A stretch of 34,146 nt of DNA from positions 1 to 34,146 of IMG/VR virus record IMGVR_UViG_3300042923_001782, one strand, 5' to 3'. The stretch is from a virus. The translations under genes were made by a program, and so were the position numbers. The notes below the pieces were generated by a model. That model was given only the letters and a program-made list of their open reading frames with translations. It searched no databases and had not been told where the DNA came from. Shown here in pieces: positions 1 to 14,614 of this stretch. Each line of letters begins with the position of its first letter. The stretch's first letter is position 1.

Positions 1-903
1 TTATAATCCAATATCCTCACCTTCACTATTAGATTTATTTTTTGACAAGTTAATAAAAGAGAATAATTTACCTAAAAAAGTTGTTTTATCTGGTTCTGCG
101 ATGTTAATATGACGAACTGACTTTCTTGAAGAGAATTTCTTCCTTGATCTTTGGATTCGATCCTTTCTTTTACCTGGTACTATTGTTTGATTAAAGCCTT
201 TTACATCTATACTACCATATCCAGATTCTACTAGTGCAATACCATTTTCAATTGATTCCTTAAAAACAACTTCTCCAGTATCCTTGTTTGTTTTTCCAAC
301 CTCAAATCCATCTTTATTTTCCATTTCAATATGTAATTGCTTTAATCCATTTTCGTTGATAATACCTTGGTATAAGTTAAACTCCTTTTTACCTGGATTG
401 GGATGAATAAGATGGAATTGCACTTTTGTTATTTTATCAATAGCTAAGAACTCTTCCCTTATTTTCTGTGGAATCGGAATAGGGTTAATGATAACATCTC
501 CTACATAAGGGTCGCTACTCAAAAGTTTAGTAAAAAGCTCTCTGAACTCATAAGCGCTAATTGAACCTGTACTTTCATGTGCTAATATTTCACTTTGCGG
601 ATCATACATGAAAAATGCTGTATGTGCGAGTTCATAGTCTGTTTTTCTCTTCTCTGTTCTATCACCAATTTTTACTTTCTGACTTGTGAATTTTGATTTT
701 GTTACATTCCCAGTAATTATTTCGTTATCATTAATAATTATTTTTTCAACATCAGTAAAAGACCAATTCCAGCTATTTATTTTGAGTGGTTTAGATTCTA
801 GTATTACTCTTGGAATATGCCTTCGAATAATCTCAAATAAGTCCTGACTAAAAATATTAGCATGTACGTTGATTTTTGCTGCAAAAAAAGTTCTTTTATG
901 CAT
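1..903 (-). CDS. Unrecognised 300-aa protein in the lysogeny arm (possible defence or conversion gene)
   Basis: This gene encodes a soluble 300-aa protein with no signal peptide or clear membrane helix. The N-terminal two thirds is mixed alpha/beta. The C-terminus (about 245-285) is very basic and rich in Arg, Lys and Ser, which suggests nucleic-acid contact, and the tail is acidic. I do not recognise a catalytic motif. The general look (a 'FFMYDPQSEILAHE'-like strand, then a 'KVQFHLIHPNP' strand) faintly recalls DUF4747-type proteins, but I cannot confirm this. ATG start at 901-903, with a GGGGGA ribosome site just upstream on the minus strand. It is transcribed leftward, away from the repressor, in the position where temperate phages carry lysogenic-conversion, superinfection-exclusion or anti-phage genes. 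The function is unknown; a defence role is only positional inference. Confidence 0.75.
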   Translation of the reverse strand: MHKRTFFAAKINVHANIFSQDLFEIIRRHIPRVILESKPLKINSWNWSFTDVEKIIINDNEIITGNVTKSKFTSQKVKIGDRTEKRKTDYELAHTAFFMYDPQSEILAHESTGSISAYEFRELFTKLLSSDPYVGDVIINPIPIPQKIREEFLAIDKITKVQFHLIHPNPGKKEFNLYQGIINENGLKQLHIEMENKDGFEVGKTNKDTGEVVFKESIENGIALVESGYGSIDVKGFNQTIVPGKRKDRIQRSRKKFSSRKSVRHINIAEPDKTTFLGKLFSFINLSKNKSNSEGEDIGL

Positions 904-966
904 TACTAAGAATCCCCCAAGTTAATTATCATAATGTATTACCTATATTTTTACAGTGAATATCTA

Positions 967-992
967 AATAAAAACACGCAGAAAAACGCGTG
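967..992 (-). terminator. Leftward terminator downstream of the BRCT gene
   Basis: Stem CACGC (975-979) pairs with GCGTG (988-992) around an 8-nt loop. Read leftward it is followed by a T-rich tract. It closely resembles the terminator after the repressor at 2033-2056 and shares the same A-rich flank, so the two appear to be copies of one ancestral element. Confidence 0.7.
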
Positions 993-1056
993 CCATTTAT
1001 TAGCTTCACTCTTAATAATCTTCCAACTCTTCATCAGCTGCTCTTGTTATTCCGGG
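993..1056 (-). pseudogene. Relic of a repressor gene 3' end
   Basis: Positions 1005-1043 match 2069-2107, the 3' end of the intact repressor gene, at 38 of 39 bases. Read leftward the relic would encode a peptide like EQLMKSWKIIKSEA, against EQLMKIWKIIKSEG in the intact repressor. It has an in-frame TAA slightly upstream, and the original stop has been lost by an apparent one-base deletion. It lies exactly between the stop codon of the BRCT gene and the upstream terminator copy. It is not an expressed gene but a recombination scar: the tail of a related but distinct repressor left behind when the BRCT gene entered this arm. Confidence 0.75.
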
Positions 1057-1971
1057 TTAGTATATTTCATCCCAAAAATCATTTTCATGAATAATAACAA
1101 TCTGCGCTCCTTCTTTTCTTAATTGCACAGCTTTTTCTACTTTTCTGCCGTAACAGGAAAATGCCCAGCAAGGATTTCCTTCGCCACCTACGATTAAGAA
1201 GTCAGTCTTTTTTGTGACACCGTCATTAAAATAGCCGCCTTTATTAACAATGATTTCGGCAATTTCCTTACGTTTAGCTCGGCTGGAAGTGCCAGTAAAC
1301 GAAAATGTTTTATTTTCAAATGTGATGTTAGGACATACCGCACAAATGCCACTGACTGAATACTTGCTTTGTAGCGCTTTTATTTCAAATTCATTGATAT
1401 TATAAGAGATTCTTGTATCTATAAAATTAGCAAAAAAAGCTTTAAGCATATTCTTTTCATCGGTACTAATGATGCCATCTTGTCTAGCACTTACCAGAAG
1501 GCTATCAATCTCGTCAAATGGGTAGGTACCTTTTAAAAATTCACGCTCTTCCATCCAGGAAGCCAATTGATTAATTTCAATCTCACTCAATTCATTGTCA
1601 GACAATAAGCCATGGAGAATTCCTTGAAGTTCTTGAATCGATGATGTGATAATATTGTAGTATTCATCAAATTCATCACCATTAATGATTCTATTACAGA
1701 GCCATAAAATATCCTGTAGTTCTTCCTTTTCTAAATGACCATCTAATAAAGCACTTTCGATAACAGGAATAATTTCTGAAAATGGGGATTTATTTTGTAA
1801 AAATCTATGTAAATTACACCAGTTAGTAATTTCGTCTAGCTCCTCAGAAGTAACAATCCCATCAATTTCGATTCCCTTGATCATACCGATTAACGAATTA
1901 ACAGCCTTATGTACCTCAGCTTTAGAAGTGTAAACTCGATAATCTTCAACTTCTGAATAGTTTTTACTCAC
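1057..1971 (-). CDS. TerB-like tandem helical repeats plus C-terminal BRCT domain protein
   Basis: This is a 304-aa protein. The C-terminal part (about 218-304) is a BRCT domain of the type found in NAD-dependent DNA ligase: a TFSFTGTSSRAKR start, a central NKGGYFNDGVTKKTDFLIVG segment, and a final aromatic FWDEIY. BRCT domains bind phosphopeptides or DNA ends. The N-terminal part (about 20-190) holds two related halves, each with two acidic 'D-G/N-x-x-x-x-E' helical units near residues 37, 77, 125 and 165, resembling TerB or EF-hand-like helical modules. No nuclease or ligase motif is visible. GTG start at 1969-1971 behind an AGGGGGA site. It is transcribed leftward with its own leader and terminator and is framed by duplicated repressor-end sequence, so it looks acquired. 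It may sense DNA damage or modify host DNA handling, but this is inference. Confidence 0.8.
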   Translation of the reverse strand: MSKNYSEVEDYRVYTSKAEVHKAVNSLIGMIKGIEIDGIVTSEELDEITNWCNLHRFLQNKSPFSEIIPVIESALLDGHLEKEELQDILWLCNRIINGDEFDEYYNIITSSIQELQGILHGLLSDNELSEIEINQLASWMEEREFLKGTYPFDEIDSLLVSARQDGIISTDEKNMLKAFFANFIDTRISYNINEFEIKALQSKYSVSGICAVCPNITFENKTFSFTGTSSRAKRKEIAEIIVNKGGYFNDGVTKKTDFLIVGGEGNPCWAFSCYGRKVEKAVQLRKEGAQIVIIHENDFWDEIY

Positions 1972-2009
1972 ACTTACTCCCCCTAATTAGAAAATAACTA
2001 CTAATTTAC

Positions 2010-2034
2010 TATATTTTTACATTTGTGATGTAAA
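2010..2034 (-). promoter_or_regulatory. Possible leftward promoter/operator of the BRCT gene
   Basis: On the minus strand a TTTACA hexamer (2034-2029) could be a -35, with a weak TATAGT or TAGTAA -10 further on. The same place carries an inverted repeat, TTTACA (2016-2021) N7 TGTAAA (2029-2034), which could be a regulator site. Spacing is not ideal for either -10, so the call is weak. Confidence 0.3.
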
Positions 2035-2056
2035 TAAAAACACGCTAGTTGCGTGT
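2033..2056 (-). terminator. Repressor gene terminator
   Basis: ACACGC (2040-2045), loop TAGTT, GCGTGT (2051-2056). Read leftward the hairpin is followed by a T-rich run (complement of 2033-2039). It sits directly after the repressor stop codon at 2060. Confidence 0.8.
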
Positions 2057-2059
2057 ACT

Positions 2060-2407
2060 TTATTTTCCTTCACTCTTAATAATCTTCCAAATCTTCATCA
2101 GCTGCTCCCGTCTTTCAGGAGATTCGTCTTTGATTTCTTTAAAGAAGATATTGAGCTCTGGATCTTCGAATTCTTCTGGTGTTTTATATTTAGATTTATC
2201 TGGAGTAGGGTCGTCTGTTCTTCCAAGAAGATAATCTGTAGATACATTTAATACATCAGCCAAATCATTTAGCATTTCATTTGAAGGCGAACTGTAATTA
2301 TTTTCATAATTACTAATGGTCCCTTTTGTTGTTTTAAGTAATTTTGCAAGACCTTCTTGAGTTAGTTTTTTCTTTTTTCTTGCAATCCTCAAACGATCAG
2401 AAATCAT
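2060..2407 (-). CDS. CI-like prophage repressor (Xre/HTH_3 family)
   Basis: This 115-aa DNA-binding repressor should maintain lysogeny by blocking the rightward early promoter. The N-terminal 60 residues form a five-helix HTH_3 domain: RLRIARKKKKLTQEGLAKLL, recognition helix around TTKGTISNYENN, then LNDLADVLNVSTDYLLGRTD. Residues about 70-115 form a short, charged, probably helical C-terminal part likely used for oligomerisation. It lacks the S24/LexA-type autoprotease domain, so induction must work through another route, for example an antirepressor such as the Rha-like protein at 4165. ATG start at 2405-2407 behind GAGGGTG. It is divergent from the Cro-like gene, with four operator-like sites between them. 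The 3' end has a degenerate second copy near 1005-1043. Confidence 0.93.
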   Translation of the reverse strand: MISDRLRIARKKKKLTQEGLAKLLKTTKGTISNYENNYSSPSNEMLNDLADVLNVSTDYLLGRTDDPTPDKSKYKTPEEFEDPELNIFFKEIKDESPERREQLMKIWKIIKSEGK

Positions 2408-2584: not shown

Positions 2585-2827
2585 ATGAGTAAAAATGTCA
2601 GCTTATTGAAAGCTAGAAAAGAGCATGGTTTTACTCAAAAAGATCTAGCTGATAAGTTGAATGTTGAAAAATCAACTATTAGCAATTGGGAAAATGGTTA
2701 TTCCACTCCAAGGCTTGCTGATGCTTTTCGAGTTGCAGATTTATTGGGAAAAGATGTAAATGAACTTTTTTTTGCTCAAAAAGAACAAGAATCTCATACT
2801 AATACTAACGCAGTAAGTACTTCTTAA
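2585..2827 (+). CDS. Cro-like HTH regulator
   Basis: This is an 80-aa Xre-family DNA-binding protein, almost entirely one HTH_3 domain: LLKARKEHGFTQKDLADKLN, recognition helix around EKSTISNWENG, then ADAFRVADLLGKDVNELFF. It ends in a short polar tail rich in Thr, Asn and Ser. It is the first gene behind the strong rightward promoter and divergent from the repressor, the classic Cro position, where it would bind the same operators and lower repressor synthesis at induction. ATG start behind GGTGGGG. An alternative role as a second repressor-type regulator cannot be excluded. Confidence 0.9.
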   Translation: MSKNVSLLKARKEHGFTQKDLADKLNVEKSTISNWENGYSTPRLADAFRVADLLGKDVNELFFAQKEQESHTNTNAVSTS

Positions 2828-3149: not shown

Positions 3150-3644
3150 ATGACAGTTGTTAATTGGTCATTTGAAGAATTATCTTTTGATTTCCAAAAC
3201 GATTACGAAAAAGCACGTGAAGATTTTCATGCGTATTCAGCTAAATCTCAATTGCTACATGAAATGATTATGGAGCGTTTTCAAGTAAAAGATTTTGAAT
3301 CGGAAGTTGTGAAAGTTTTAGAGAAAAAGCGTGTGGAAATTCGTGACCAGGCAGACAAATTATATGACGTACAAAAGTACTTAAATAATTTAACAAAGGG
3401 ATATCCATTTAATGTTCCTCCTAGGGTTGGTAGGCATATGGTTAAATTCGGTCTTACTCAAGAACAAGCTGAAATGTTTTTAAACATTCATAAAAGCCAT
3501 ATGGCAGCAATGGGTTCCGAAAACCAAGGGAAGTACTCATTAGCTCATGTTCAAAATGTTATTTGGGATGCAGAGGACGATTGCATAAAAGTTTATTACG
3601 ATGACATCTGGTGGCATTACGATCGTCAAGGTAACTGGTATTGA
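3150..3644 (+). CDS. Hypothetical early phage protein
   Basis: This 164-aa protein is not recognised. The first 95 residues are strongly helical with heptad-like spacing (about 55-95 likely coiled coil). The rest has a short helical stretch containing GLTQEQAEMFLNIHKSH and a C-terminal beta-like, tryptophan- and tyrosine-rich part ending WWHYDRQGNWY. ATG 3150 is chosen because AAAGGGGG (3135-3142) precedes it; the reading frame extends upstream but overlaps the previous gene without a ribosome site. It is part of the early rightward operon. Confidence 0.78.
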   Translation: MTVVNWSFEELSFDFQNDYEKAREDFHAYSAKSQLLHEMIMERFQVKDFESEVVKVLEKKRVEIRDQADKLYDVQKYLNNLTKGYPFNVPPRVGRHMVKFGLTQEQAEMFLNIHKSHMAAMGSENQGKYSLAHVQNVIWDAEDDCIKVYYDDIWWHYDRQGNWY

Positions 3645-3646
3645 TT

Positions 3647-3760
3647 ATGAAAAAATGTCTCCAGTGCGGCAAAGAAATACCAACTTATAAATATTTTTGT
3701 GATATCGATTGTGAGGTCAAGCACACCGACCAATTGAATAGCAGCAATCTCCAGAGGTGA
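3647..3760 (+). CDS. Very small cysteine-rich (zinc-finger-like) protein
   Basis: The frame codes for 37 aa beginning MKKCLQCGKEIP, with CxxC near the start and two further cysteines (CDIDC) at about 18 and 22. This is the layout of a single four-cysteine zinc finger, as in tiny phage zinc ribbons. The start follows the upstream stop by only 2 bases, so translation is probably coupled. Its 3' end overlaps the stem of a terminator. Function unknown. Confidence 0.55.
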   Translation: MKKCLQCGKEIPTYKYFCDIDCEVKHTDQLNSSNLQR

Positions 3761-3776
3761 AAACCTCACTTTTTTT
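3754..3776 (+). terminator. Rho-independent terminator after the first early operon
   Basis: GAGGT (3754-3758), tetraloop GAAA, ACCTC (3763-3767), then AC followed by seven T. The 5' arm includes the stop region of the small cysteine-rich ORF. Confidence 0.8.
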
Positions 3777-3838
3777 CGGCAAAATAATGTCGAATCCTAC
3801 CGTCGATAAATGATTGATGCTGGCGAAAGATTGCGAGA

Positions 3839-3868
3839 TTGATAATTTCATAGGTTGTTTAGTGTAAA
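3839..3868 (+). promoter_or_regulatory. Possible promoter downstream of the early terminator
   Basis: TTGATA (3839-3844), 18-base spacer, TGTAAA (3863-3868). The -35 is good and the -10 weak. It would restart transcription for the Rha-like gene after the terminator at 3754-3776. The stretch 3777-3892 holds no gene I can support. Confidence 0.35.
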
Positions 3869-3892
3869 TATGTCGAAAGTTGGTGAAAGAAA

Positions 3893-4030
3893 ATGAAATT
3901 CAGCAAAGAGGTTTTGGATAAAGTATCTGATGGTGATCAACACACTAAGCTTGTTGCCGTTGAATATTCAACAAGTGTACGTGAGGTGGTAACGGTTGGG
4001 TACATGATTGAGAATCCACAAAATATCTAG
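3893..4030 (+). CDS. Small hypothetical protein (45 aa)
   Basis: An ATG at 3893 behind GGTGAAAG opens a 45-codon frame (MKFSKEVLDKVSDGDQ... to ...ENPQNI). The composition is protein-like, with balanced charge and a beta-like centre (LVAVEYSTSVREVVTVGYM). No family recognised. It lies between the early terminator and the Rha-like gene. Confidence 0.45.
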   Translation: MKFSKEVLDKVSDGDQHTKLVAVEYSTSVREVVTVGYMIENPQNI

Positions 4031-4067
4031 TTCTAATTGTTTAGTAGCTTTTAAGGGGGTGAAACAT

Positions 4068-4151
4068 ATGAAAATCAAGCCTAAAACATGGTTAGCTATG
4101 ACCACTCAGGAACGATTAATGGCTATTTATATCGCTTCAAAACGAAAATAG
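4068..4151 (+). CDS. Tiny ORF (27 aa) before the Rha-like gene
   Basis: A strong AAGGGGGTG site precedes ATG 4068. The product is a 27-aa basic, mostly helical peptide (MKIKPKTWLAMTTQERLMAI...). It ends 13 bases before the next start, and its 3' end overlaps the next ribosome site (GGAGGGG), so it may be a translated leader as much as a functional protein. Confidence 0.45.
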   Translation: MKIKPKTWLAMTTQERLMAIYIASKRK

Positions 4152-4164
4152 GAGGGGAAATTAA

Positions 4165-4938
4165 GTGAACCAATTACAAGTGGTCGAACAAAATGGAAAA
4201 TTGTTGACCGATAGTCGTGAAGTAGCCGAAATGATTGGAAAAGAACATTCACATCTTCTTAGAGATATTCGGAATTATATCGATGTTTTACGTAAATCCA
4301 AAATTGGATTCACCGATTTTTTTATTGAGAGTTTTTATAATGACACTCAAGGTAAACCGAGACCTCATTTTTTTATGAGTAAAAAAGGCTGCGACATGGT
4401 AGCTAATAAGCTCACCGGAGAAAAAGGCGTACTATTTACAGCTACATATGTAACTCAATTTGAACAAATGGAACAAAAATTAAAACAACCTGAAATCTCA
4501 GGCTTAAGTCCGCAATTGCAATATCTCATTCATTTAGAACATAAACAAAATGAGTTTGAGAAAAAACTGGATCGCACCGAAACAAAAGTTACTCAATTAA
4601 CGGAAGGTTTAACCTCGGTTCCAGACCACACAAAAGTCGTTGAAAGAGTAAACGAATATGCTCGATATACACGTCAAGGTCATGATGCTATTTATAACGG
4701 AATTTATAAAATACTGAAAGCTCAGCATGGGATTGATGTGAAAGCGAGAGTGGAAAACGAACGTAGAAAAATTAACGCTGAGTATTATGCAAGAAAAGGA
4801 AAACTATATTCAGAATCTACTCTTAAGCAAAAAGTGAATGGCATTGATGTCATGGTTCGAATGGGAGCTTTGGAGAAGTTTAATACAATTCTGGTGGGCC
4901 TATTAGCGAAAGCTAGAGGATTTGAGGTTGCGGAATGA
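4165..4938 (+). CDS. Rha-family antirepressor-like protein with ORF6C domain
   Basis: This 257-aa protein carries two known phage-regulator domains. Residues 8-105 are a Rha (pRha) domain: LTDSREVAEMIGKEHSHLLRDI, then FFIESFYNDTQGKPRPHFFM and the closing TATYVTQFEQMEQ. Residues about 120-255 contain a coiled-coil linker and an ORF6C-type C-terminal domain (YARYTRQGHDAIYNGIYKIL ... GALEKFNTILVGLLAK). Proteins of this kind act as antirepressors or early regulators; because the repressor here lacks an autoprotease domain, this protein is a sensible candidate for inactivating it on induction. GTG start at 4165 behind GGAGGGG. A long hairpin overlaps its stop codon. Confidence 0.88.
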   Translation: MNQLQVVEQNGKLLTDSREVAEMIGKEHSHLLRDIRNYIDVLRKSKIGFTDFFIESFYNDTQGKPRPHFFMSKKGCDMVANKLTGEKGVLFTATYVTQFEQMEQKLKQPEISGLSPQLQYLIHLEHKQNEFEKKLDRTETKVTQLTEGLTSVPDHTKVVERVNEYARYTRQGHDAIYNGIYKILKAQHGIDVKARVENERRKINAEYYARKGKLYSESTLKQKVNGIDVMVRMGALEKFNTILVGLLAKARGFEVAE

Positions 4939-4964
4939 CACTTGCTGGAACAAGTAGTCATTCC
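4932..4964 (+). other. Long hairpin overlapping the end of the Rha-like gene
   Basis: GGAATGAC-ACTTG (4932-4944), 6-nt loop, CAAGT-A-GTCATTCC (4951-4964): 13 paired bases with one bulged A. No T-tract follows, so it is not a standard terminator. It may protect the transcript 3' end, be an RNase site, or bind a protein. The rest of the gap to 5067 is AT-rich with nothing else I can support. Confidence 0.6.
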
Positions 4965-5067
4965 AAATTAAATCATTTCAAAATAAATCTAAGTTAATAA
5001 TATCCTGAATGTTACATTTTTTCAAATGGATATATTTTAAGAAAACTGATTGGAAGAGGTGGTGGTG

Positions 5068-5844
5068 TTGCATCAAGGCTTCATAAAACTCCATCGTAAA
5101 ATTCAAGACCACTGGATATACCAAGAAAAAAGAAAGTTTTCACGCTATGAAGCTTGGCTAGATCTTCTTATGTCAGCCAACCACAAGGATAATCGATTGG
5201 TACTTGGAAATGAAATTATCCACATAGAAAAAGGTAGTTTTGTTACCTCTGAATTGAAGTTGATGGATCGTTGGGATTGGGGAAAAGGTAAGTTAAGGAC
5301 GTTTTTGGAAATGCTTGAAAATGACGGAATGATTGTTAAAAAATCGGACCGCAAAAAAACCACGATTACCATATGCAACTACTGTATTTATCATCAATTC
5401 GAAAACGAAAACAGACCACAAACAGACCATGAGCGGACTATAAGCGGACTGTCAGCGGACACAAACAAGAATGTAAAGAATGTAAAGAATGTAAAGAATA
5501 ATACTTCTCGTCACAAATTTGAAATTTGCGACATGGAGATGGCAGAACTATTATTTCAAAAAATGTTAGCGAACAACGAAAATGCTAAACAACCAAACTT
5601 AGAAGCTTGGGCAAATGAAGTTAGGCTGATGAGAGAAAAAGATAATCGAACCATTGAGCAGATTCAATACCTCATCAACTGGTCCCAAAACGATTCCTTC
5701 TGGAAGGTTAATATCCTTTCAATGTCCAAGCTTCGTAGTAAGTTTGATCAGTTGGTTATTCGGTGCAAGGAAGATGCACAAAAGAAAAAAACAGCACCTT
5801 TCAAGAAATCGGTTGAAAAGGAGGACTTTGATTTAAGTGACTAA
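5068..5844 (+). CDS. Phage replication initiator (replisome organiser, O/DnaD-like)
   Basis: This protein of about 258 aa should bind the phage origin and recruit the helicase loader and helicase encoded next. Residues about 1-105 form a winged-helix DNA-binding domain (FIKLHRKIQDHWIYQEKRKF ... YEAWLDLLMSANHK ... RWDWGKGKLRTFLEMLENDG). Residues about 112-150 are a low-complexity linker containing an NVK repeat. The C-terminal domain (about 155-245) has the phage replication-protein pattern LEAWANEVRLMRE ... SFWKVNILSMSKLRSKF. The start is uncertain: TTG 5068 is preferred because GAAGAGGTGG precedes it; GTG 5065 or TTG 5050 are in frame. The linker DNA contains five 11-bp repeats and an AT-rich 9-bp repeat, suggesting the origin lies inside the gene. 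Confidence 0.88.
   Translation: MHQGFIKLHRKIQDHWIYQEKRKFSRYEAWLDLLMSANHKDNRLVLGNEIIHIEKGSFVTSELKLMDRWDWGKGKLRTFLEMLENDGMIVKKSDRKKTTITICNYCIYHQFENENRPQTDHERTISGLSADTNKNVKNVKNVKNNTSRHKFEICDMEMAELLFQKMLANNENAKQPNLEAWANEVRLMREKDNRTIEQIQYLINWSQNDSFWKVNILSMSKLRSKFDQLVIRCKEDAQKKKTAPFKKSVEKEDFDLSD
5410..5464 (+). repeat. Five 11-bp iteron-like direct repeats (candidate replication origin)
   Basis: Five units follow each other with an exact 11-base period starting at 5410, 5421, 5432, 5443 and 5454. The first two begin AACAGACCA and the last three AGCGGAC; all share A-R-C-R-GAC. As 11 is not a multiple of three, the period cannot come from a repeated peptide, which points to selection on the DNA. Iterons spaced at one helical turn inside an initiator gene are typical of phage origins. 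Confidence 0.65.
5467..5499 (+). repeat. AT-rich 9-bp tandem repeat (candidate unwinding element)
   Basis: AAGAATGTA is repeated three times (5467-5475, 5476-5484, 5485-5493) plus a partial AAGAAT. It encodes a Lys-Asn-Val repeat in the linker of the initiator. It is adjacent to the 11-bp iterons on the AT-rich side, the usual place of a DNA-unwinding element. Confidence 0.75.
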
Positions 5845-13757: not shown

Positions 13758-13786
13758 TTGACGAACGATAGTATTTGTCCGATTAT
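13758..13786 (+). promoter_or_regulatory. Candidate moron promoter
   Basis: TTGACG (13758-13763), 17-base spacer, GATTAT (13781-13786). The -35 is good and the -10 moderate. It lies 43 bases before the start of the membrane-MazF gene and downstream of two terminators, so it could express that gene from the lysogen. Confidence 0.5.
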
Positions 13787-13828
13787 TTCCTTTCGCTGAT
13801 AATTAGAGTGAAAGGGGTAGTTATTGCT

Positions 13829-14614
13829 ATGGAAGAAAACTCAAAATGGTCCAATAGAGATTGGAAATGGACTGTAAGTATTTTGGTAAGTATAATTGTC
13901 TTCTTGTTGACTTATAAGTTTTGGGGGAAGTCAGAAAGTATCATAGATGTTATTTCTATTGGAAGTGGCTTAACTTCTATTGCACTGGCGATAGTTGCTA
14001 TTATTATTGCAGTCAGTGAAGGAATTAAATCTCAAGGTAAAGAAAAAATAGTTAATAATGGTTTGCACAGTATTATCAATAATTTGGATACAATGAGAAA
14101 CCTAATAAATAAACTTGAAAATGATAATACGAAAACTCATAACCAATTAAACAAAATAGGAGACTATATTAGTGGGTTTAAAAACATAGAAGAAGAAATT
14201 TATATTGGAAATGAAAAAAATAAAGGACAAGATAAGTCGGGAATTACTCAAAACAACAACGGGTCTATTATATCCAGAGGAGATATAGTATTGGCAAACT
14301 TAGGTCTGGATTTAGGAACAAAAAAAGAAGATCTAAGACCTGTTGTTGTTATTCAGAACGATATCGCTAATAAGTATTCACCTATAGTAACAGTGGCACC
14401 AATAACGAGTCAGATTCAAACTGCGAAATTACCTACTCAAGTTGAGCTAAAAGGAAGTCAATATGGATTAGATAAAGATTCCGTTATCTTAGTTGAACAA
14501 ATAAAAGTAATCAGTAGAGAAAGACTGTCACAAAAAATCTCTAGGATTGATCGAAATAAAATGAGTGAAATTGATAGTGCAATAGAAATACAATTAGGTT
14601 TAGTTGATTTTTAA
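13829..14614 (+). CDS. Membrane-anchored MazF/PemK toxin-like RNase (TM-TM-coiled coil-MazF)
   Basis: This 261-aa protein has three parts. Residues 12-32 and 38-62 are two hydrophobic helices forming a membrane hairpin. Residues about 70-140 are a polar helical, probably coiled-coil, linker (NLDTMRNLINKLEND). Residues 148-261 are a complete MazF/PemK domain with the family's RGDIVLANLG start, LRPVVVIQND (R170), APITSQIQTAKLPT (T193) and DSVILVEQIKVI (E223, Q224). It closely resembles B. subtilis EndoA, a ribosome-independent mRNA endonuclease; the Arg and Thr known as catalytic there are kept, so activity is likely. Normal MazF is about 115 aa and cytosolic, and no MazE antitoxin gene is adjacent. 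I chose ATG 13829 behind AAAGGGG; earlier in-frame starts exist. Its own promoter and terminator mark it as a moron. Confidence 0.88.
   Translation: MEENSKWSNRDWKWTVSILVSIIVFLLTYKFWGKSESIIDVISIGSGLTSIALAIVAIIIAVSEGIKSQGKEKIVNNGLHSIINNLDTMRNLINKLENDNTKTHNQLNKIGDYISGFKNIEEEIYIGNEKNKGQDKSGITQNNNGSIISRGDIVLANLGLDLGTKKEDLRPVVVIQNDIANKYSPIVTVAPITSQIQTAKLPTQVELKGSQYGLDKDSVILVEQIKVISRERLSQKISRIDRNKMSEIDSAIEIQLGLVDF

Follow-up and report, generated by a model that had tools for sequence, protein, structure and literature searches.

Why does the end of a repressor gene lie stranded between two other genes of a phage? The window (the whole 34,146-nt IMG/VR record analysed here) comes from a temperate phage, and the piece of repressor tail that it carries between two added accessory genes is best read as a recombination scar. 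Accessory genes piled up behind the repressors of such phages are often anti-virus. Defence hotspots at this position are known; the way in which they fill up and come to hold genes in series is largely conjectural.

Layout of the locus

Read leftward from the immunity switch, the window has a Cro-like gene, a repressor, a terminator, a leader, a BRCT gene, the relic of a repressor tail with its own terminator and leader, and a gene referred to here as gene 1. The cargo lies directly downstream of the repressor, and all of these genes are leftward (2060-2407, 1057-1971 and 1-903). Because the record starts at the stop codon of gene 1, the true left side of the prophage, where ImmA and the integrase are found in relatives, is missing. 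The features are as follows:

1-903, minus strand: gene 1, 300 aa, first of a conserved soluble plus membrane two-gene pair
904-964, minus strand: gene 1 leader, homologous to the BRCT gene leader (collinear alignment, p 0.004-0.005)
973-994, minus strand: terminator of the relic unit (stem-loop and T run; -10.2 kcal/mol in a 40-nt fold)
995-1056, minus strand: relic, 62 nt, 3' end of a related second repressor gene, now decayed (tblastn E 2e-5 to the repressor C-terminus)
1057-1971, minus strand: BRCT gene, 304 aa, cargo, phrog_3989 family (phrog_3989 E 6e-81; BRCT E 4e-8)
1972-2031, minus strand: BRCT gene leader, belonging to the repressor-side unit and not to the BRCT lineage (like the gene 1 leader, p 0.004; unlike the L212 BRCT leader, p 0.83)
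2040-2056, minus strand: terminator of the resident repressor (stem-loop/fold analysis)
2060-2407, minus strand: resident repressor, 115 aa, HTH_3 (E 1e-16), with the duplicated tail at 2068-2119
2513-2541: promoter TTGACA-17-TATAAT, on the side of the Cro-like regulator (sequence motif)
2585-2827, plus strand: divergent Cro-like regulator, HTH_3 (E 1e-16), on the other side of the immunity switch

Far from this region, positions 13775-14614 encode a 279-aa protein in which an N-terminal hydrophobic stretch precedes a fused PemK/MazF-like toxin domain.

A repeated tail, terminator and leader

The last ~20 codons of the resident repressor, its terminator and the following leader recur in the same order right behind the BRCT stop codon. 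A sequence-only reading of this DNA had reported that 1005-1043 matches 2069-2107 at 38 of 39 bases. This match is real and far above chance: a repeat finder places it as the core of a direct repeat (1004-1055 and 2068-2119, 46/52 identical), and blastn against the loci collected recovers it independently (40 nt at 97.5%, E about 4e-14). Short coding repeats do occur and the record is a single contig, but about 2e-13 pairs at 38/39 are expected by chance, and a segment duplicated in assembly would show neither diverged flanks nor unique substitutions, so that the probability of coincidence or artefact is negligible. The same reading correctly placed the BRCT gene exactly between the copies with its stop directly at the relic: the TAA occupies 1057-1059 and the relic starts at the very next base. 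Terminators are likewise present 3' of both tail copies (973-994 and 2040-2056); the 15-base flank that they had been said to share says little by itself, since unrelated Bacilli loci carry 14-17 nt of this terminator motif.

The similarity of the two leaders proved more informative than that reading had suggested. They align collinearly (TGTAAAAATATAGTAA ... GGGGGA) with p about 0.004-0.005 against dinucleotide shuffles, and the collinear match extends through tail, terminator and leader up to the ribosome binding site (RBS). The repeated unit is therefore tail plus terminator plus leader, about 150 nt in length. Although alike, the BRCT and gene 1 leaders are unlike the leaders of homologous BRCT genes or of gene 1 homologues elsewhere, which assigns the unit to the repressor side of the slot; the cargo ORFs were joined to it near their RBS. 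The BRCT leader contains a perfect 7-5-7 palindrome (TTTACAT-N5-ATGTAAA, 2016-2034), of which the gene 1 leader has an imperfect version; the palindrome may serve as an operator or form part of the terminator region.

Condition and origin of the relic

The relic reads PE*QEQLMKSWKIIKSEANK, whereas the resident tail reads PERREQLMKIWKIIKSEGK*. The codon differences are TAA for AGA, CAA for CGG, AGT for ATT and GCT AAT for GGA AAA. With an in-frame TAA, an I>S substitution in the conserved core, no stop at the position of the resident's stop and a shifted end, the relic is a dead, decayed fragment that codes for nothing now.

The intact repressor tail of another prophage, L213, matches the relic at 40/48 nt. 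Two codons, CAA (Gln) and AAT (Asn), are common to the relic and the L213 tail and absent from the resident, so the relic is not just the resident tail duplicated. These comparisons support the assignment of the relic as the 3' end of a related repressor, as had been proposed from its differences from the resident, with a handful of sites pointing to the foreign origin. Two further observations agree with the sequence-only reading as a whole: the relic was never found as part of an unrelated intact gene, and the two copies do not always occur together, as the BRCT gene also occurs without the relic.

The second copy might have been retained as the terminator and promoter region of the BRCT gene, its coding appearance being incidental. 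Terminator and leader are indeed intact in both copies, but this explanation is very unlikely as a full account, since it leaves unexplained both the repressor codons before the terminator and their likeness to the tail of another repressor. It is compatible with a scar as a description of the scar's present role.

The BRCT gene and its breakpoints

The closest relative of the BRCT gene (78% protein identity) is in L212, where a repressor also precedes it, with a tail like that of the window's repressor (ESPERREQLRKIWEIIKSE). Between the window and L212, DNA homology starts at the RBS of the BRCT gene and ends abruptly at its stop codon. Beyond that stop the window has the repressor relic, while L212 has a different sequence and no repressor relic. 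The L212 sequence is itself a relic: it matches the C-terminal end of a 340-aa protein (47% over 34 aa, E 7e-5) that another phage, L185, carries in the same module and that is taken as exonuclease-type from its sequence. A third case was found in L011, an unrelated phage, in which the last 18 aa encoded by the gene immediately ahead of BRCT recur directly after the BRCT stop (E 8e-4).

When 338 proteins from these regions were searched against the segments downstream of 61 BRCT loci, relics of gene tails with E below the cut-off of 0.01 were detected at 3/61 loci only (the window, L212 and L011), all of them C-terminal pieces. The scar is therefore occasional and not a fixed element: gene-tail scars behind BRCT genes recur but are rare. 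A strong repeat between upstream and downstream DNA is confined to the window (score 105, against a cross-locus maximum of 54 among the 61 loci).

A site-specific or Campbell-type insertion offers another explanation of the repeat, with the tail core as the insertion site and a small circle carrying the BRCT gene and a copy of the tail crossing over within the 39-nt core. Near-identical 39-nt repeats flanking the cargo amid diverged outer sequence would fit such an event, and L011 has the same geometry with a different upstream gene. The tails of L011 and the window are unrelated, however, and thus provide no common site; most of the 61 loci have no flanking repeat; no recombinase gene accompanies the cassette; and the tail core of L212 differs at synonymous sites, giving no sign of constraint at the DNA level. 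We consider this insertion quite improbable. On the same count of loci, the idea that the BRCT gene is a cassette always flanked by repeats was rejected, and the same direct repeat around cargo in independent insertions was not found among the 61 loci. A functional DNA element in the tail core is also disfavoured, because L212 conserves the protein and not the synonymous sites.

An HTH repressor lies within 1.6 kb upstream of the BRCT gene at 45/61 loci (directly upstream at 20), and the repressors ahead of genes of this family are of unlike kinds. A distant BRCT homologue (26.5% identity) is present in Vibrio phage K139 (orf2). L306 and L307 carry BRCT copies amid apparently chromosomal genes, with no repressor match nearby. 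L212 and L309 both line up a BRCT gene with a gene of 265-267 aa, which is PDC-M41A-type in L212, and a DUF5131-type gene; these trios stand behind unlike repressors, and the three genes may travel together.

Repressor tails as places of exchange

In L217, two repressors in tandem share 49-51% DNA identity over their HTH halves and 86-92% over their tails (oriented 3619-4382), and a second tandem pair with unlike HTH halves and matching tails is found in L229 (oriented 3182-3897). The window repressor itself, whose closest relatives are only about 50-60% identical, resembles L220 in its HTH (47/64 identical) and not in its tail (17/41), while the reverse holds for L212 (tail 28/36, HTH 27/63). 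On these alignments it is chimeric, with the HTH of one class and the tail of another. The tail comparisons cover pairs that were recomputed or read directly, as distinct from a group-wide C-tail profile. Together, the tandem repressors with like tails and the chimeric window repressor indicate that DNA has been exchanged across the tail in this group.

Tandem repressors also suggest another origin for the relic: an ancestor could have had two repressors with a shared tail, the body of the second being replaced by the BRCT gene so that its tail and terminator remained. Pairs of this kind exist, as above, and the codons that the relic shares with L213 and that the resident lacks would suit a second gene. 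This origin would nevertheless require two precise breakpoints, at the RBS and the stop of the BRCT gene; the two terminators and the two leaders differ as much as separate loci do; and no intermediate was found. It is, in our judgement, unlikely.

The accessory slot behind the repressor

Among 20 regions around related repressors, 13 have an ImmA peptidase downstream of the repressor, and 12 of these 13 hold one to four cargo ORFs between the two genes, the remaining one (L225) being empty. An integrase or recombinase lies just past ImmA in the relatives whose far side was listed. The cargo varies, and its PADLOC matches include models of defence systems: PD-Lambda-5 A/B in L216, a PD-T4-6-like kinase in L213 and PDC-M41A/B in L212. 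Proteins with HSDR_N and exonuclease domains are also found in the slot. These observations support the region behind the repressor as an exchange zone for accessory genes.

Hotspots of this type have been described in Bacillales and in K139-type phages (Rousset et al. 2022, PMC9122126). The Bacillales hotspot as drawn in Fig. 7B of that paper has the same slot as our 13 relatives, with a repressor, variable cargo and an ImmA-type peptidase, the far side being cut off in the window. The K139-type hotspot lies, according to the part of the paper considered here, between cI and the integrase; K139, which itself carries the distant BRCT homologue, belongs to a different phage group from the window. 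Unlike the published account, which in that part gives location and content but not junctions, the repressor-tail scar and the tandem and chimeric repressors described here suggest a route of exchange. Judged by full-text literature searches, which were not exhaustive, the hotspot is known, and the scar and the tails as joints are new.

Search for parental forms

The whole arrangement was not found elsewhere by near-mode DNA searches of phages and plasmids, by a degenerate tail pattern applied to viral contigs, or by DNA searches of two families and one class; the best partial matches to the locus were L212 (for the BRCT gene) and L213 (for the tail). Terminase relatives of the phage (84-86% identical) are unusable as parental forms because their repressors are unrelated and their genomes mosaic. 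An empty form, with gene 1 directly behind a repressor whose tail reads like the relic, had been predicted, but none of eight further gene 1 loci had it.

Proposed history

We propose that the relic is probably a scar left by recombination in the region of a Bacilli prophage that takes up accessory genes. This slot opens with a repeated boundary unit made up of the C-terminal coding end of the repressor, a terminator, and the leader and RBS of the next gene. One lineage would have had the order repressor, tail, terminator, leader, BRCT gene; in the other, terminator, leader and gene 1 would have come after a related repressor whose tail was L213-like. Recombination would then have fused the BRCT gene, right after its stop, to the final ~20 codons of this second repressor, producing the junction seen in the window. 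The body of the old repressor would have been displaced by the incoming repressor, leaving both cargoes in series; its tail no longer codes and has decayed. Its terminator and leader would be placed to end transcription of the BRCT gene and to start that of gene 1. The tail is a plausible place for such an exchange because repressors swap DNA-binding domains and keep similar tail DNA, as seen in the relatives.

In favour of a scar are the collinear repeat of tail, terminator and leader, leaders that track the boundary unit rather than the cargo, the end of the BRCT homology with L212 at the stop codon, the L213 codons in the relic, and the analogous tail relics of L212 and L011. Counting against it, the flanks are clearly less alike than the 38/39 core, which may point to re-homogenisation of the core or to a history with more steps. 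There is no visible homology at the BRCT/relic junction, and that step must therefore have been illegitimate. No parental form was found, repressor relics are not general for the BRCT gene family, and the closest repressor relatives are distant, at only about 50-60% identity.

Phage morons are added genes that bring their own terminator and leader. The cargo genes resemble morons in this respect and in their leftward position in a lysogeny module, but differ from a self-contained moron in that the terminator appears to derive from the end of a displaced repressor gene.

The sequence-only reading had taken the repressor tail and terminator to be a recombination point at which phages stack accessory genes. 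Recombination in the repressor region, with tails as joints, agrees with this idea; as a general point of stacking it is overstated, since such relics are confined to three of the 61 BRCT loci, and recombination at the tail and terminator is only now and then the way in which genes are stacked. A stranded repressor tail, together with tandem repressors that share tails, nonetheless provides a concrete recombination route with a searchable sequence signature, and connects a switch in immunity specificity with the acquisition of accessory genes. More speculatively, repressor tail, terminator and leader might form a portable homology adapter through which both the HTH half (immunity specificity) and defence cargo are exchanged, a generalization that we regard as doubtful. 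If it is true, immunity type could change and a defence gene be gained in one recombination, with tail relics as the readable record.

Gene 1 and its membrane partner

Gene 1 has no Pfam or PADLOC family above noise, no NCBIfam family, no significant PHROG and no match among solved structures, and its single-sequence AlphaFold model is uninformative (pLDDT 31). A multi-TM protein of 176-202 aa directly follows the gene 1 homologue in 8/8 loci examined; the partner of gene 1 of the window would lie past the left end of the record. Two of the eight homologues (L078 and L308) are in lysogeny modules, both between ImmA and an integrase or recombinase, and the rest lie outside such modules. The pair (L078 6759-8235; L308 6669-8100) recurs in prophages and other mobile-looking regions and is absent from every family library searched. 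Gene 1 and the membrane protein are an unannotated two-gene candidate travelling in the same region.

Lambda RexA/RexB and RexAB of P. putida (PMC11077077, PMC12894663) likewise consist of a soluble protein of ~300 aa and a small multi-TM protein in a lysogeny module. Gene 1 has no sequence similarity to RexA above controls: the hhalign probability is 0.2 and RexA ranks below several of 148 control proteins, so that homology to RexA is not supported. When 51 TM proteins were compared with the membrane partner of the relatives, four RexB proteins ranked 1, 3, 4 and 5, with probabilities of at most 16%. Kinship of the pair with RexAB is accordingly an unproven lead and not a membership. Beside another BRCT gene, L256 has a different, opposite-strand pair (4093-5675) that encodes proteins of 316 and 183 aa; the smaller one is a membrane protein and scored as high as RexB against the profile of the gene 1 partner.
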